In this document: positions 9,401 to 64,000 of the stretch, piece by piece
Layout: each line of letters begins with the position of its first letter
Numbering within the stretch: position 1 is the stretch's first letter
DNA from: Verrucomicrobiia bacterium
GTDB taxonomy: Bacteria > Verrucomicrobiota > Verrucomicrobiia > Limisphaerales > JAEYXS01
Assembly (NCBI GenBank): GCA_036405135.1
Contig: DASWYF010000035.1
Span: 62,001-126,000 of the forward strand
Length of the DNA: 64,000 nucleotides
Direction of reading: 5' to 3'
Position numbers and translations under genes: made by a program
Notes under the pieces: model-generated
Databases searched by the model: none
Told to the model about the DNA's origin: nothing
Seen by the model: the letters and a program-made list of their open reading frames with translations, nothing else

Positions 9401-11358
9401 AGTATCTGAGTCAGGTGCGGGCGAAGGAGATGGTTGGGGGGCCGCTGGATAAGGAGCAGAAAGAAATTGATCGTCTTTCAGACCGCCGGGTGTTCTTGGA
9501 GCGCGAAGCGACGTTGGTGCTTTCCAAGGCTAAGGAAGCTGAGAAGCAATTGCAGGCGGCTAATGCGAATAAGTCCTCTGCGGAAATTGAGAAGTGGAAG
9601 AAGGAATCGGAAGCATGGAGCGGACGGGTCAAAGGAGTGGAGACGGAGACTGCGCAGGTGGATGCCCAGATCGAGGTGAAATTGACGGAGCTGCGCAAGC
9701 TGGCGGCTGAAGCCGGTCCTTGGGTATTGGCTGCGGGCGATCCGATTCAAGTCTTCGTGGTGGAGGATGAATCGCTGAACAGCTACTACGAGGTCCAAAA
9801 AGATGGCTATGTCGTCCTGCCGAAAATCGGACGCGTGCAGGTCGCGGGCAAGGATTTGCCGGATGCGGAGAAGGCGATCAAGGAAGCTCTGCAAGCATCC
9901 CAGTTGAGTCGAGCCACGGTGATGGTTGAGCGGCTTACTGAGAAAGAGGTCAAGGAGTTCAACGCCAAGAAGGCGAAGGAAGAGGAAGTGGCTAAGAAGC
10001 CTGTGCCTGCACCTCCCGGCATCCCGCAACCGGAAGTGAGCACGGCGGAGAATGCGTTCTCTACGTTCTCGCTGAATGTGAGTGATGTGTCGTTCAAGCT
10101 GGCGGCGGCGAGCCTGGAGAAGGGGTTGATGCCGGAGCTGGGTTCCGTGCGCACGGAGGAGTTTATCAATGCGTTCAATTATCATGATCCCGAGCCAGCA
10201 AGCGGTTCTCGCGTGTCCTTTGCTTGGGAGCGGGCGAGGTATCCCTTCGCGCATGATCGTGATCTGGTGCGGTTTTCGGTGCAGACGGCGGCGATCGGGC
10301 GTGAGCCGGGCAAGCCGTTGAATATCGTGCTGCTGTTGGATAACTCCGGCTCGATGGAGCGCGCGGACCGCATCCGCATCCGGCAGGAGTGTCTGCGTGT
10401 GCTGGGTTCGCAATTGCAACCGCAGGACAAGGTGAGCGTGGTGTCCTTCGCCCGGACAGCGCGCTTGTGGGTAGATGGTATGACCGGAGCGCATGCGAAG
10501 GAACTGCCTGAGCGCGTGGGGAATCTCTCGCCGGAGGGTGGCACAAATCTGGAGGAGGCGATGAACCTCGCGTATCAAACGGCACAACGCCATTTCGTGC
10601 CGAACGGCGTAAATCGCGTGGTGTTGCTGACAGATGGTGCGGCGAATTTGGGCGAGGTGCAGCCGGAATCGCTCAAGAAAAAAGTGGTGTCCTATCGCCA
10701 ACAAGGCGTGGCGCTGGATTGCTTCGGCATCGGTTGGGATGGTTATAACGATGATCTATTGGAAGCACTTTCGCGCAATGGCGATGGCCGTTATGGCTTC
10801 GTGAATTCGCCGGAAGCGGCCACGACGGAATTTGCTGCTCAGCTCTCAGGTGCGCTGAAAGTCGCGGCTTCGGATGTGAAAGTGCAAGTGGAGTGGAATC
10901 CGAAGCGGGTGAAGGTGTTCCGTCAGTTGGGTTACGCGATGCATCAGCTCAAGAAAGAGGAGTTCCGCGATAACACGGTGGATGCGGCGGAGATCGGCGC
11001 GGCGGAGGCGGGTAATGCGCTCTACACGGTGCAGGTGAATTCGGCGGGTGAAGGACCGCTCGGCGTGGTCCGCGTGCGGTATCGCCTGCCGGGCACGAAT
11101 GATTATCGCGAGCAGGAATGGCCGCTGGCGTATGACGGCGCATCGAAGTCCATGGAGCAGGCGAGTGTGCCGATACGTCTCGCAGGTACGGCGTCCGCGT
11201 TCAGCGAATGGCTGGTGTCGAGTCCGTATGCGGCGGAGGTGACGCCGGAGAAGTTGATCGCGCAGATGGCCGGTGTGCCGGAGGCGTATCCGGCGGACCC
11301 ACGGCCAAAACAACTTGAGTGGATGATACGACAGGCTAAGAGCCTGTCGGGGAGATAA
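6412..11358 (+). CDS. Anti-sigma-like / polysaccharide-export / vWA fusion protein
   Basis: A 1648-residue protein. Residues 1-100 are acidic and helical and resemble an anti-sigma N-terminus (LLLGELTAEEEAEVRAAVAQ). One membrane span follows at about 112-131. Residues 150-870 are low-complexity, Ala/Gly/Ser/Pro-rich. Coiled-coil segments lie at about 879-940 and 1014-1095. A Wza-type polysaccharide export domain is at about 1100-1190 (LAAGDPIQVF, DGYVVLPKIGRVQV). The end matches the YfbK-type vWA module: N-terminal part from about 1205, MIDAS motif LDNSGSM (Asp1310), and a C-terminal DUF3520-like part. The topology puts the vWA part outside the cytoplasm and the sigma-binding part inside. It overlaps the sigma gene by ATGA. 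An imperfect repeat KVxxWRxxREDYL/REEYL occurs twice. Confidence 0.85.
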   Translation: MKPEDYENDMEVRITALLLGELTAEEEAEVRAAVAQDAELMRLHDRLKVVMGLVRDAVPTTELPANVIPEPLTLANERREELLAVFQGKAPKVKEEEKIVQVSFWQRYQKDLMKLAAMVVALFGVTWLMLFKRETQLAYLDTTTQKDVLGSGDEFMRLLAVQDAIPTPAPAAPAPVVMAAPMASSDMALVPLADVYSFTNTMALDNASSEFNTTYTINLSQVERLNGVTANSVAASAVPDSSPRAEMSSRTPSPAERPLDRARNTREITLRRRGAEAGAAAAPSAAPVESRVTFSAAKENAAAVRFSSASKDSVPQAQSVGGVLMGAPQTASRSFSIALPEPEMAQVKELSDLTADGAVQMGQRGDAFGRGVNVTTGGGSGSGEAMLSQTKANNKAWGFTGSTADARGRQSGLSPEAKPSAPVAGDLPMLGTLFGNNGIAAGAKAPNPSGNFSVQDLDESIHASNRLEVNRGLADGSSAKPVMGERFYRETASAPVPSQAVSTKAEDKVDAWRQPREDYLGGLAAKGRMENEFRGYADGSQNGLPAIAVNSPKLPASQSAQDRLARVDGLSDQMSIANGTVTGGIALPATPARPMRPALGGTTLNFTTSSEGRAKADVVTPGAVVMSGRVEPELNAYYATDPQKGLAVVNDNALGDAQKNVWYDTSAGIGGEAERKNRVVGRHAWTLPQGTTLDLDKVMAEAKEKDGSFVVTRTNGGNGQVELSYSFDAPMAGKPVSGVVNRGGGIAGGAGISPELSGNNLPPVALQGAYRAAQDTNALASDFGVVVNRSQMGREVDGDVGYNYAKKLTPESSNQGSGDKDLKFAAMLGNLNTNVWVGQNERTTNYYNGMDRFGTSVPDGRKLNEQAPVRMSLLEDVALPSLEEAAKRQATETLVGETLKRAEGLKESGNLAEAEMLQGEAAKLRKRITDIKGEKQQFAQIEKAWEIPSSRDGLPTPNPYARTNTTQSRSPVLAQLNQEQSHDASDKVEGWRKAREEYLSQVRAKEMVGGPLDKEQKEIDRLSDRRVFLEREATLVLSKAKEAEKQLQAANANKSSAEIEKWKKESEAWSGRVKGVETETAQVDAQIEVKLTELRKLAAEAGPWVLAAGDPIQVFVVEDESLNSYYEVQKDGYVVLPKIGRVQVAGKDLPDAEKAIKEALQASQLSRATVMVERLTEKEVKEFNAKKAKEEEVAKKPVPAPPGIPQPEVSTAENAFSTFSLNVSDVSFKLAAASLEKGLMPELGSVRTEEFINAFNYHDPEPASGSRVSFAWERARYPFAHDRDLVRFSVQTAAIGREPGKPLNIVLLLDNSGSMERADRIRIRQECLRVLGSQLQPQDKVSVVSFARTARLWVDGMTGAHAKELPERVGNLSPEGGTNLEEAMNLAYQTAQRHFVPNGVNRVVLLTDGAANLGEVQPESLKKKVVSYRQQGVALDCFGIGWDGYNDDLLEALSRNGDGRYGFVNSPEAATTEFAAQLSGALKVAASDVKVQVEWNPKRVKVFRQLGYAMHQLKKEEFRDNTVDAAEIGAAEAGNALYTVQVNSAGEGPLGVVRVRYRLPGTNDYREQEWPLAYDGASKSMEQASVPIRLAGTASAFSEWLVSSPYAAEVTPEKLIAQMAGVPEAYPADPRPKQLEWMIRQAKSLSGR

Positions 11359-58901: not shown

Positions 58902-58930
58902 TTGACTTATTACTACCTTGGTAGTATTAC
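58902..58930 (+). promoter_or_regulatory. Promoter of the BlaI/M56 operon
   Basis: TTGACT at 58902-58907 and TATTAC at 58925-58930 are spaced by exactly 17 bp. The leader to the ATG (58958) would be about 20 nt. Confidence 0.75.
58911..58926. promoter_or_regulatory. BlaI-type operator
   Basis: An inverted repeat TACTACC-TT-GGTAGTA lies between the -35 and -10 boxes. It resembles BlaI/MecI operators (TACTA...TAGTA), so the repressor would block its own promoter. Confidence 0.75.
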
Positions 58931-58957
58931 TGTGGTCGTTAACCCGAGATTTTTACC

Positions 58958-59344
58958 ATGAAGACGGCCAAGGTGCATCGGTTAGGGGAGCTTCAACTGC
59001 GGATCCTGAAAGTGCTTTGGGGGAAGCGCGAAGGGACGGTTGGAGAGGTTCACGAGGCGTTGAGTGCGGAGGATGATTTTGCCTATACGACCATCGCCAC
59101 CATGTTGAGAAAGATGGAGGCGCGGGGGTTGGTGAAACATCGGACGGAGGGGAGGACGTTCATTTACGCGGCGATGGTCGCGGAGCATGAAGTTACGAAA
59201 GGCGCGCTCAATGACCTCGTGGACCGTTTTTTTGAAGGGAGCCTGGCGGAGGCGATGAACCATCTGCTGACCTCCCGTGAGGTGAGCAAGGAGGAACTGG
59301 CGCGGATGCAAAAGCTCATCGAGGAAAGGAAGAAGAAACTATGA
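58958..59344 (+). CDS. BlaI/MecI/CopY-family repressor
   Basis: A 128-residue winged-helix repressor. HRLGELQLRILKVLWGKREG, TVGEVHEALSA and FAYTTIATMLRKMEARGLVK form the DNA-binding head; HRTEGRTFIYAAMVAEHEVT is the wing and the start of the dimer domain. In the bla and mec systems the repressor is cut or inactivated after the membrane metallopeptidase BlaR1 senses a signal. The next gene, an M56 protein, overlaps its stop by ATGA. A well-placed operator upstream indicates self-repression. Confidence 0.94.
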   Translation: MKTAKVHRLGELQLRILKVLWGKREGTVGEVHEALSAEDDFAYTTIATMLRKMEARGLVKHRTEGRTFIYAAMVAEHEVTKGALNDLVDRFFEGSLAEAMNHLLTSREVSKEELARMQKLIEERKKKL

Positions 59345-62300
59345 GCGCGCCGTGGCATATGGTGGGGTGGCTGGCGGTGGAGGTGGCGCTGGTGGTTGTG
59401 CTCTCACTGCTGGTGACGTGGCGGATGCGGTCGGTCATCTGGCAGCGGACGTTGTGGCAGGCGGGGTTGATCGCGCTGACGGGGGTGTTGGTGGTGGAGT
59501 TCGCGGCGTTGACGCCGGTGTTCGCTCGTAAAGAAGTTCGAGTGGATGCGCCTGTAGTGGAGGTGAAACCGGAAGTGGTGGAGTCCGGAACGCCTTTTCA
59601 TGCGCCCATAGAAATCACTGCGACGGAGTTGAGTGTTCCTGTGCCGACAGAGCCTTTGCCTGCGGTGAACTTGGTGGAGCCGGTGGCGACTGCTCCAAGG
59701 GTTGAAGATTTGGCGGTGAAGGTGGATACGATCGCGGAGGTTTCGGCGGCCAAGGTGGAGGAGCAGGTTGATTCGGCAAGGAAGTTTCCTTTGGTGCTGG
59801 CGTTGGTGCTTTTGGTTTGGGTGGTGGGGACGTTGGTGCTGGGGGCGCGTTTGTTAGTGGGGAGGTTTTTGTTGCTGCGGTTTTGTGCGCGGAGCCGGGT
59901 GGTGGCGGGTGAAGGGGATGGAGATTGGGGGCGGGAAAGCAAAACTGGCAGGCGGGCACCCCTCACCCCGTCCCTCTCCCCTCCGAGGGGCGAGGGAGAT
60001 GAAGCGTTGCGGTGCTCTCCTCAGCTCCTGGCGATCGGGGGCAGCGCCCGCATGCGCCCGTCAATATTCGACAGGCAGTTGTTTGAGCGCGTGCAGGGGA
60101 TCGCGCGGAAGCTGGGTTTGAAGCAGTCAGTGCAGGTGTTGGAGACGGGGCGCATCCAGACGCCGGTGGTGTTCGGCTTGGTCCGGTTGACGATCGCGTT
60201 GCCGTCGGGATTTGCGGAGAAGTTTGGGCGGAAGCAGCAGGAGGCGATCTTGGCGCATGAACTAGCGCATCTGGCGGCGCGTGATCCATTGTGGTATCTG
60301 CTGGCGGATGCGCTGGTATCAGTGCTGTGGTGGCATCCGCTGGTGTGGGTGGCACGGGCGCGCTTGCAGGTGGCGAGCGAGATGGCGGCGGATGAGGCGT
60401 GTGTACTGGCGAAGCACGGACCGGAGACGCTGGCGGAGTGCCTGGTGACGATCGCGCAGGAGATGACAGGGAAGGGATCGCTGGAGTCCATCGGCATTGA
60501 GGGGAGCGGTTTTCGTTCGCGGTTGGGACAACGAGTGGAGCGGTTGTTGGAGCTTTCTGCGGAGATGGTGTCACGTCCAGCGGCTTGGCGGACGCGGATG
60601 GTGAAGGTGGGGATGCCTGTTTTGTTGGTGGGGGTGTTGCTCGTTGGGTCGGGGTGGGTGAGGCGGGATCAGAGTGCGCCGTGGTCGGGGTTGATTAGTG
60701 GGGCGTGGAACATGATGTCGGGGATTCTGAAGACTGAGGAGGCGGATATCAGGCGGGAACCGAGACCAGTGTTAGTGGTTGCTCAGGCAGAGAAATCGAC
60801 GGTTGAGAGCGATGGACGCGCGGAGAAGGCTTTGGAGCCGCTGGTCACCAAGGTGTTCAATCTGAAAATTGCATTGCCGACGGAAATCGTTACTGCGGTG
60901 GGGACTGCCATAACGGATTCGCGGGGGAAAATAGTGGCGGATGACCGGGCGAAGAAGTTGCTGGTCTCTGTGGTGAAGGGTGACATGGGAAATGTGGAGG
61001 ATGTGATCGCCAAGTTGGATGTGAGCGGAGGAAAAATTGAAGGGGCAGTGCAAGCAACGAACACTGCCTTCAGCTATGATAAAGATGGAAAACTATCGAG
61101 GCATGAGGGAGATATTAAAAGATTGGATCGAATGCGTGAGGTGGAGCGTGAAAGATTGGATCGAATGGTTGAAGCCGAAGAAAGAGAGTCTCGTTTGGAT
61201 GGCATCAGGTTTTCCAAGGTGTCGCTCAAAAATGTGACGCTGGAGGAGGCGGTAAAACGGTTGATCAGCAGTACTCCATTCAAGGGTTTAAAGGTGGAGA
61301 TGGAGGGCAAGATGGCGACGACGATGGGGAATATTGAGCTTGGGTTAGTTATGTGCAGTGCTGAAATTGAGCATGGGGATTCTTTGCGGCAGGCGTTGGA
61401 TGCGGTGTGCAAAGGGGCGGTGTATCCGTTGCAGTACCAGTATCAATCGCAGGGAAACAAGGTGGTATTTCAGGCCAAGACAGTGGCGAAGCCAGTTGAG
61501 GCGGAGGTGGCGGCATTGATCCAGAGCGGGAGAGTATGGTACGAGCAGCAACGGCTGGCAGAAGCGGAGATAAAGTTCAAGGAAGCTATCAAATTCGATC
61601 CCGCCAACACGGTCGCGTTTTATTACCTGAATCTGATACAAGAGGCGCGATATGGGGATCTGGCGAAGAAGCGGGATGAGGAGCAACGGGCACGCATTGT
61701 TCAGGTAGAAAAGAGTTGGGATATACCGGCCGGGACGAATCGATTGCCGATGCCGAATCCGTATGTGCGGACGAATGGATCACAAACGATGACAAAAGCG
61801 CGGCAACGTAAGCTGGCTCTGCTGGATCAGATGGTGATGAAGGAGGTTTTCTTTGACGGATGGCCTTTGGTGGAGGTGGTGAGGATTTTACAGGAGGAAT
61901 CGGTGAAGCTGGATCCGGAGAAGATGGGTGTCAATTTTATCATCAATTCGAATCTGGATGACCAGCCAGCAAATCGAGGGCTGAATACGGAGGGCAAGTC
62001 TGAACTGAAGGCGCAGGCATCACCCAAGGCGGTGGATTTGGAGAAGATGATTATCAGGATCAATCCGGCGTTGAAGAATCTGCGGATGATCGATGCTTTG
62101 GATGCGATCACGAAGGTGGCGACGCCGATCGATGGGGTTGGTTTGACCTTCATGGTGGAGGATTATGCGGTGGTGTTCCGGCAGCGGGTGAATGAGCCGA
62201 AGCAGTTGTTCACGCGGATTTTCAAGGTGGACAAAGAAAAATTGATTAAAGGTTTAGAAGCGCAAACGGGGCAGAAACTTGTGCCGCTGACGACGAATCT

Positions 62301-64000
62301 GACGGTTGCGAGTCCGACCAATCTGCTTCAAAGCCCGACGGCTTCAAGTGGGATGGTGGTGACGACAAATAATTCGGTGGCTCGTACGCAACAGCTTCAA
62401 ACCATGGCCCGCCAGTTCTTCGCGAAATGTGGTGTGAACGTGAGCTCTAATGAGTCGCCCGAAACACAGATTTTCTTCAATGATCGGACTGGTGCGCTAA
62501 TGGTGCGGGCTTCTTTGCTGGATTTGGAGATCATCGCCAGCGCATTGGAGGTGCTGGCGGCTTTTCCTGATACGGTAGCTTCTGCGGCGGTATCAGCGAC
62601 ATCGTCAACGTCAGCTGTTTGGAGCTATAAATTTGATGGGGCGGATTATGTGATGGGAGTGGAAAAGTTGACCGGGAAAAAAGTGGAGGAGATGTCGGCG
62701 GTGGATTTGGCTGCGCAGGTGAATGGCGGGAGAGGCATGACGAACAAGCATCAGGTGCAATGGCATCAGATAGAGCTGCTCACGCGGGAGTTCTTGAAGT
62801 CTCAAGGGGCTGATTTATCGGCAGGTAATTTCGGGTTGATCGCACCCCAGAAGCCGGGGGATGAGGCGAAATGGGCGGTCGCTTGGGCAACGGCGGCGGA
62901 GTTGGACGTTTTTCGCAAGAGCAGCCAGAAGATCGTGGAAGCTGGAAAACTTGCCGAAATGGTCTTGCTTTTGGGCCGGGCGACTAACCAAGTGACGGCC
63001 AAGACTGTGCCACCCCAAACAGCGGCAGTAACGGAAACGATTGCGGTAAAGGAGGAGATATCCATTCTCGTGCAGGATGCGAAGCTGCTTTATGAACTGC
63101 GGCGGCTGGATGAGGCGGAGAAGAAGTTGCAGGAAGCCATCAAGCGTGATCCGAAGAATCCTGCTGCATATTACTATATGAACTTGGTGCAGGAGGCGCG
63201 GAATGGGGAATTGGCACGCAAGCGGGATATTGCGCAACGTTCTGACGTTGTGTTTCCAGGTGGGGTGCCGAAGGCTAGAGATGGATTGCCTACGCCGAAT
63301 CCTTATGTGCGGACGAATTCTTCCCTAACCATTACAAAAGCCAGACAGCGGATCGAGGAGAAGCTGGATAAGATGGTGGTGAAGGAGGTGTTCTTTGACG
63401 GGTTGCCGCTTTCTGAGGTTGTAAGGTATCTACGCAATGAGTCGGTCAAATTGGATGCGGAGCAGTTGGGTATCAACTTCATGATGAACTCCCGTCTGGA
63501 TGAGCAGTCGGGTTTACAAGGGAATGTGGGCAAGAATTTGACTGACCCGTTGGGTGCTCCTTTGGCACCAGCACCAGCTGCGTTGGACCTGAGCGTGGTG
63601 TTGGTGAAGATCAATCCACCACTGAAGAATCTGACGATGCGGGAGATGTTGAACGCGATCACGAATGTGACGGCGCACGTGGGCAAGCATGGGCTGGACT
63701 ACAAGGTGGAGGATTATGCGGTGGTGTTCCGGGAACGGGTGATCGAGCCGCCGCAGTTGTTCACGCGGATTTTCAAGGTGGAGCCGAATACTTTTAATCA
63801 TGGGTTGCAGCAGGTGTGGGCGAGCAGTGGGATGCCGGCGAATTCATCCACGAATCTACAGGATCTGTGGCGGGAGTTCATCCGGCACGCAGGGGTGAAG
63901 ACGGATACAAATAGCACTCCGGCCAGTCAGGTTTTTTATAATGAAAAAACAGGAGTGTTGATGGTGCGAGCATCGTTGAGAGATCTGGAGGTGATCCAGT
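59341..64000 (+). CDS. Giant BlaR1-like M56 metallopeptidase with tandem secretin-like repeats (3' end outside window)
   Basis: The frame is open from ATG 59341 to the window edge, at least 1553 residues, without a stop. Membrane spans lie at about 8-25, 36-55, 149-170 and 422-438. The M56 site is HELAH (His306, Glu307, His310) with Glu347 in SEMAADEA. BlaR1 has a penicillin-binding sensor of about 250 residues; here a far longer C-terminal region follows. It holds two units of about 520 residues (from about 727 and 1246), each with a TPR-like pair (AEAEIKFKEAIKFDPAN; EAEKKLQEAIKRDPKN), an LPxPNPYVRTN segment, EVFFDGxPLxEVVR resembling STN/secretin N-domains, and LFTRIFKV. A hairpin repeat is translated in frame at 59956-60000. 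Sensing and repressor cleavage are inferred from BlaR1. Confidence 0.87.
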   Translation, partial: MSAPWHMVGWLAVEVALVVVLSLLVTWRMRSVIWQRTLWQAGLIALTGVLVVEFAALTPVFARKEVRVDAPVVEVKPEVVESGTPFHAPIEITATELSVPVPTEPLPAVNLVEPVATAPRVEDLAVKVDTIAEVSAAKVEEQVDSARKFPLVLALVLLVWVVGTLVLGARLLVGRFLLLRFCARSRVVAGEGDGDWGRESKTGRRAPLTPSLSPPRGEGDEALRCSPQLLAIGGSARMRPSIFDRQLFERVQGIARKLGLKQSVQVLETGRIQTPVVFGLVRLTIALPSGFAEKFGRKQQEAILAHELAHLAARDPLWYLLADALVSVLWWHPLVWVARARLQVASEMAADEACVLAKHGPETLAECLVTIAQEMTGKGSLESIGIEGSGFRSRLGQRVERLLELSAEMVSRPAAWRTRMVKVGMPVLLVGVLLVGSGWVRRDQSAPWSGLISGAWNMMSGILKTEEADIRREPRPVLVVAQAEKSTVESDGRAEKALEPLVTKVFNLKIALPTEIVTAVGTAITDSRGKIVADDRAKKLLVSVVKGDMGNVEDVIAKLDVSGGKIEGAVQATNTAFSYDKDGKLSRHEGDIKRLDRMREVERERLDRMVEAEERESRLDGIRFSKVSLKNVTLEEAVKRLISSTPFKGLKVEMEGKMATTMGNIELGLVMCSAEIEHGDSLRQALDAVCKGAVYPLQYQYQSQGNKVVFQAKTVAKPVEAEVAALIQSGRVWYEQQRLAEAEIKFKEAIKFDPANTVAFYYLNLIQEARYGDLAKKRDEEQRARIVQVEKSWDIPAGTNRLPMPNPYVRTNGSQTMTKARQRKLALLDQMVMKEVFFDGWPLVEVVRILQEESVKLDPEKMGVNFIINSNLDDQPANRGLNTEGKSELKAQASPKAVDLEKMIIRINPALKNLRMIDALDAITKVATPIDGVGLTFMVEDYAVVFRQRVNEPKQLFTRIFKVDKEKLIKGLEAQTGQKLVPLTTNLTVASPTNLLQSPTASSGMVVTTNNSVARTQQLQTMARQFFAKCGVNVSSNESPETQIFFNDRTGALMVRASLLDLEIIASALEVLAAFPDTVASAAVSATSSTSAVWSYKFDGADYVMGVEKLTGKKVEEMSAVDLAAQVNGGRGMTNKHQVQWHQIELLTREFLKSQGADLSAGNFGLIAPQKPGDEAKWAVAWATAAELDVFRKSSQKIVEAGKLAEMVLLLGRATNQVTAKTVPPQTAAVTETIAVKEEISILVQDAKLLYELRRLDEAEKKLQEAIKRDPKNPAAYYYMNLVQEARNGELARKRDIAQRSDVVFPGGVPKARDGLPTPNPYVRTNSSLTITKARQRIEEKLDKMVVKEVFFDGLPLSEVVRYLRNESVKLDAEQLGINFMMNSRLDEQSGLQGNVGKNLTDPLGAPLAPAPAALDLSVVLVKINPPLKNLTMREMLNAITNVTAHVGKHGLDYKVEDYAVVFRERVIEPPQLFTRIFKVEPNTFNHGLQQVWASSGMPANSSTNLQDLWREFIRHAGVKTDTNSTPASQVFYNEKTGVLMVRASLRDLEVIQ
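59956..60000. repeat. Palindromic repeat translated within the M56 gene
   Basis: The element GCACCCCTCACC plus hairpin CTCCCCT/AGGGGCG is read as APLTPSLSPPRGEG (residues about 206-219), between the third membrane span and the peptidase domain. Its relatives at 1741-1781 and 50798-50843 are intergenic. Confidence 0.75.

Follow-up and report, generated by a model that had tools for sequence, protein, structure and literature searches.

What does a BlaR1-like receptor sense when, in place of the penicillin-binding domain, it carries a C-terminal region of more than 1300 residues that consists mostly of secretin modules? To our knowledge, the ligands of most M56/BlaI receptors beyond beta-lactam resistance are not known. 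The question is raised by a gene pair at the end of our window, by which we mean the whole stretch of 64,000 nucleotides analysed (positions 62001-126000 of contig C35 in the source genome, G000). An earlier note, made from the letters of the window, had suggested that the M56 protein senses something other than beta-lactams, perhaps secretin or envelope assembly. The features of the pair are as follows.

58902..58930, plus strand: sigma70-type blaI promoter, TTGACT, 17-bp spacer and TATTAC (sequence reading)
58912..58939, plus strand: predicted tandem BlaI operator, ACTACCTTGGTAGTATTACTGTGGTCGT (same site upstream of blaI elsewhere)
58958..59344, plus strand: BlaI-type repressor, 128 aa (Pfam PF03965, E 6.6e-31)
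59341..64000, plus strand, continuing to 64749 past the window end: M56-secretin fusion, 1802 aa (frame read in the parent contig)
59359..59847, plus strand: first three predicted transmembrane helices, residues 7-25, 43-61 and 151-169 (hydropathy)
59947..60060, plus strand: dispersed genomic repeat, one copy in frame within the linker that precedes the protease domain (45 genome matches)
60061..60414, plus strand: M56 protease core, residues 241-358, with HELAH at 60256-60270 (PF05569 Peptidase_M56)
60598..60654, plus strand: fourth predicted transmembrane helix, residues 420-438, followed by the C-terminal part (hydropathy)
60847..61026, plus strand: first Secretin_N domain, residues 503-562 (PF03958, best stretch)
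61186..61485, plus strand: putative STN/N0-like segment, residues 616-715 (pattern read by eye, without a profile match)
61510..62580, plus strand: unit 1, with TPR (724-756), N0 (about 795-982) and N1 (about 1004-1080) (Pfam, secretin comparison)
63082..64000, plus strand: unit 2, with TPR (1248-1280), N0 (1310-1492) and the start of N1 (Pfam, NCBIfam, secretin comparison)

The blaI and M56 genes overlap by 4 nt (58958-59344 and from 59341), as in beta-lactam sensing operons, which is what the earlier note had seen. That note had also found no stop before the window end and had proposed extending the sequence; indeed, the M56 frame stays open for another 749 nt and closes at would-be window position 64749, giving an intact protein. 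Codon-position (three-base) composition is even along the entire frame, and thus there is no hidden frameshift of the kind that would have split it. The uninterrupted frame likewise excludes an assembly artefact, and a relative in the same genus (L083, genome G001) carries the fusion too, with one unit. The M56-secretin fusion is neither an artefact nor a lone oddity.

The pair shares its receptor half with BlaR1/BlaI and MecR1/MecI of staphylococci and bacilli, in which a BlaI repressor gene also overlaps that of a four-helix M56 gluzincin with the catalytic residues HExxH...E, D and R, and in which dyad operators cover the promoter. The HExxH, E, D and R of the M56 core are invariant in 12 aligned sequences (the window protein and 11 relatives), and H306, H310, E347, D351 and R398 of the window protein occupy the positions of BlaR1 H201, H205, E242, D246 and R294, which bind zinc or shape the active site (PMC9834060). 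Sequence matches in the PDB for residues 260-366 are BlaR1 (8exs/8exp), and NCBIfam finds the protease part BlaR1-like, with a blaR1_generic match of 66 bits that covers the M56 part only and compares with a cut-off of 400. Hydropathy peaks place the protease between helices three and four, which fits the BlaR1 topology; we therefore infer that the long C-terminal part lies in the periplasm. The dispersed repeat in the linker has no counterpart in the orthologous protein of G001. The genome's other M56 protein (L004:4697-9484, contig C18; 1595 aa) resembles the window protein in having its own BlaI (9481-9864) and a giant C-terminal region instead of a penicillin-binding domain, but that region consists of seven carboxypeptidase-regulatory-like stretches (CarboxypepD_reg) with no secretin, and the M56 parts are only about 30% identical.

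The sensor half is where the window protein departs from BlaR1 and MecR1. None of the 13 Pfam families listed for it is a penicillin-binding domain, which excludes a hidden one and bears out the earlier note on this point. That note had described TPR-like helices in each of two repeated units, together with STN/secretin-like folds. Pfam places a TPR in each unit, and the Secretin_N, N0 and N1 domains confirm the folds; past the window end, there follow the rest of the unit 2 N1 and a Secretin domain (PF00263, residues 1647-1762). The full C-terminal secretin module (N0, N1 and core) had been overlooked; its secretin domain lies beyond position 64000 and could not be seen in the window. NCBIfam matches the sensor part to Amuc_1098_fam (E 2.9e-56, 191 bits), below the 750-bit equivalog cut-off, and residues 1521-1751 match a Deinococcus pilus secretin in the PDB. 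A structure search, of the sort suggested in the note, used a model predicted for the C-terminal part of L083, the protein of the closest relative (mean pLDDT 68.7, from only 13 sequences). Residues 40-173 of this model align with the N0 domains of PilQ, EscC, XcpQ and GspD (PilQ N0, 4av2: Z 9.1, rmsd 2.6), and residues 368-612 align with the cores of GspD, pIV, PilQ and InvG. Matches to secretin cores reach Z 10.1 with rmsd 4.1 (9k8v) and Z 10.0 with rmsd 3.8 (7ofh), and the whole-chain rmsd is large because the placement of the domains is unsure.

The same genome also encodes a standalone secretin of 959 aa (L059, contig C38), which sits behind a PilM/Amuc_1101-like gene, an Amuc_1100-like gene and a third small gene. 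The Akkermansia pilus locus has this arrangement, and its secretin, Amuc_1098, is abundant in the outer membrane (PMC4960237). The standalone secretin, too, falls under the 750-bit Amuc_1098 cut-off, at 339 bits. The two repeated units are real: unit 1 (715-986) is 62% identical to the matching stretch of the standalone secretin, and the segment that holds unit 2 and its flank (1175-1492) is 55% identical, while the same comparison with the G047 fusion, from a different family within the order, gives 31-34%. The unit 1 N0 alone is 69% identical to the secretin of its own genome, and the N0 regions of the window protein lie at 63-69%. These comparisons place the sensor half among the Amuc_1098-type (PilQ-like) type IV pilus secretins, a source that had escaped the earlier note along with the recurrence of the fusion as a family and its private operator. 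The fusion has TPR, N0, N1 and core in the identical order to the Amuc_1098/PilQ secretin of Akkermansia; it differs in that an M56 receptor replaces the signal peptide at the N-terminus, the TPR-N0-N1 unit is duplicated and the VPxLG motif is lost, and in that its gene lies outside the pilus operon, whereas the standalone copy lies inside one. Contig C23 of this genome also encodes an orphan protein of 363 aa (L060:2695-3786), with a signal-peptide-like start and N1-like and degenerate secretin-core sequence, which has no Pfam match and shares 32% identity with the last part of the window protein.

When the order is searched with a profile of the M56 part, 50 of 245 sampled genomes, in 34 of 115 genera, have the subfamily. 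N0, N1 or secretin-core pieces are present in frame in 41 of the 46 inspected genes; of the other five, three are truncated by contig ends, one is split so that the pieces fall in the following frame, and one, of 542 aa, has none. The records of the relatives name Verrucomicrobiota, including Pedosphaera and Limisphaerales. In the M56 tree, the verrucomicrobial fusions and planctomycete relatives together form one well-supported side of a branch, and the 12 planctomycete relatives have no secretin pieces, their tails being charged or proline-rich. Secretin parts also occur in a second M56 clade of the order, a distant one whose BlaI is only 25-28% identical. One record titled Klebsiella pneumoniae (L130:6434-12720), in which the fusion is divided into two overlapping frames, is almost certainly a verrucomicrobial MAG under the wrong name, and its M56 part is sister to that of L106.

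If the secretin parts had been acquired once, the fused N0 domains should group together. Instead, fused and standalone copies are intermixed in the N0 tree, and one common origin for the fused N0 is rejected (AU p = 2.65e-57), the constraint costing 188 log units. The fused N0 is closest to the secretin of its own genome in 7 of 14 testable genomes, among 44 standalone candidates (permutation P 5e-5). Such own-genome pairs are well supported in G027, G049 and G121, and both G000/G001 and G119 group with standalone secretins of their genus. The N0 domain was also acquired by the second M56 clade (G027), which has a different BlaI and operator. The two units of the window protein fall apart in the tree: unit 2 clusters with the one unit of the G001 fusion, and unit 1 joins the standalone secretins found in the genus. 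This suggests that the units are separate captures; origin of unit 1 by tandem duplication of unit 2 is not favoured by the tree, though not rejected either (AU p 0.312). Thus, bacteria of this order appear to have swapped the penicillin-binding part for pieces of a pilus secretin several separate times. Gene conversion could leave the same own-genome trace as fresh capture with no function needed, and the fused and standalone copies might then be kept alike by recombination while the fusion senses something unrelated. We consider this last reading quite improbable, as two M56 clades acquired the domain and secretin pieces persist in nearly all the genes inspected; moreover, G000 has an additional unit 1 that G001 lacks, which points to a fresh insertion rather than conversion.

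The modules retained differ widely among members, and protein lengths within the order range from 542 to more than 2400 residues. Some members have N0-N1 only (L084 and L088 end after N1), others have the core only, and LysM (G040) or SLBB (G047) domains are added in some. One Limisphaerales fusion (L131:3-7283), truncated on both sides but still 2427 aa or longer, has five N0 matches of usable length, and a separate secretin-core-like protein of 331 aa (L091:2699-3694) is encoded directly downstream of another M56-secretin fusion. Two second-clade M56 proteins (L057:2746-6387 and L052:3479-5845) have an ExbD/TolR-like domain (PF02472) in the sensor part. This variety argues for contact with some part of a secretin, and not a pore, as what matters; the other option is that the modules are a generic platform. 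According to the second option, the main rival to sensing of secretin state, the N0 and N1 folds would never touch the real secretin; they would serve to oligomerise or to bind ligands in response to a signal from the envelope, cell-wall fragments for example. The LysM, SLBB and ExbD domains and the highly variable module set would fit such a platform, but it leaves the repeated uptake of N0 from the cell's own secretin unexplained, and we think it somewhat unlikely.

The fusion might instead form a tethered channel of its own, the M56-BlaI half merely setting its amount. The topology would suit such an inducible private secretin, with N0 adjoining the inner membrane, and the VPxLGDxPxxGxLF motif is retained in several members. 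However, VPxLGxxPxxGxLF near the C-terminus, kept in L092, L100, L106, L108, L113, L119 and L127, is absent from the window protein sequence and from L083, and the members that end after N1 cannot form a pore; this explanation is therefore improbable in our judgement, even though the operator is found only at the fusion's own promoter.

That operator has the pattern ACTACC-NN-GGTAGT-ATTACC-NN-GGTNGT, unlike those of BlaR1 and MecR1 systems; the first dyad lies within the 17-bp promoter spacer, the second overlaps the -10 box, and TTGAC precedes the operator in most upstream regions compared. The second-clade BlaIs have TACA-TGTA dyads instead. The earlier note had proposed looking for BlaI operators elsewhere in the genome, and we searched 27 genomes for the tandem site, allowing up to 3 mismatches, and G000 and G001 for the single dyad, allowing up to 2. 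In the 5.8 Mb of G000, the tandem site occurs at this one place, and the single dyad at just one other (C11:7489, with 2 mismatches), which has no counterpart among the G001 matches. The tandem site is present in 22 of the 27 genomes, in both phyla, at one place each and always upstream of blaI; in none of the 22 does it precede a beta-lactamase or PBP2a gene. A wider BlaI regulon is not supported, only the blaI promoter standing out in either search. The only promoter found under the repressor is therefore its own, and, in contrast to BlaR1 and MecR1 systems, the pair has no separate target gene that bears the operator. The pilus operon has no operator, and thus there is no visible feedback on the pilus itself. 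With one operator per genome, always upstream of blaI, the circuit looks private, although additional targets with weaker sites are possible.

Neighbouring genes also offer no candidate output: none conserved outside the genus points to function, and the signal therefore most likely acts via the pair itself. The surroundings bear as well on whether the fusion is a guard, its secretin copy serving as bait for some phage or toxin whose real target is the pilus secretin, and its protease triggering a response. In plant NLRs, integrated decoys are cellular targets copied onto the receptor, and by analogy the repeated re-copying seen here is the pattern expected of such decoys. The fusion has no PADLOC match, though, conserved defence neighbours are lacking and the operon contains no effector, which makes a guard very improbable. 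Weak PADLOC matches of BlaI to CARF-linked families cover the winged-helix part, and we rejected assignment of the pair to a defence system.

The reading we favour, at a little short of an even chance, is that this M56-BlaI receptor reports on the assembly of the cell's own secretin or pilus through a mimic of that secretin. It is argued for by the own-genome matching of N0, the rejected single origin, the Amuc_1098_fam match, the invariant catalytic residues, the structure matches of L083 and the uptake of the domain by a second M56 clade, and it makes the earlier suggestion of secretin or envelope assembly the best-supported one. The M56 protein would have four passes through the inner membrane and a cytosolic zinc protease, and its periplasmic TPR, N0, N1 and core would be the parts that meet the inner-membrane pilus platform and fellow secretin subunits. 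Secretin N0 domains dock on an inner-membrane platform, as in GspC-GspD, of which PDB 3oss, among our structure matches, is an example. A membrane-held N0 mimic that follows the N0 sequence of its own cell could compete for, or join, the contacts of the real secretin. Its binding, either to subunits of the secretin or to the platform protein that partners N0, would depend on whether the real ring is assembled and occupied. The state of the ring would be relayed across the membrane, the protease would cleave BlaI, as in BlaR1, and the promoter under the tandem operator would open. The direct output would be more sensor, the pair's own promoter being the sole one found with the operator. Against this reading, secretin cores show the own-genome effect only weakly (3 of 11 genomes, P 0.028); moreover, some members have N0-N1 only and others core only, so that one common contact surface is not obvious. 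The lack of visible feedback on the pilus, and gene conversion as a possible source of the own-genome pattern, weigh against it as well.

The pair is of the BlaR1/BlaI kind, and what is new is a sensor of unexpected and repeated origin; in a search of openly available journal papers, we found none that joins BlaR1, secretins and Verrucomicrobia, or M56 with secretins, in a relevant way. The repeated swap suggests a previously undescribed way of watching the cell's own secretion machinery. More tentatively still, the pair may be a self-contained surveillance circuit for the type IV pilus secretin of the cell, in which the receptor carries an integrated copy of the part it watches, re-copied as the secretin diverges, a bacterial counterpart of integrated decoys that acts by regulated proteolysis of a private repressor. 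The ancestry of the sensor gives a concrete and testable ligand candidate, the cell's own pilus secretin. If this is true, these bacteria would keep watch over the assembly of a secretion channel in the outer membrane via a membrane protease and a dedicated repressor, with a receptor rebuilt repeatedly out of the machine being watched.
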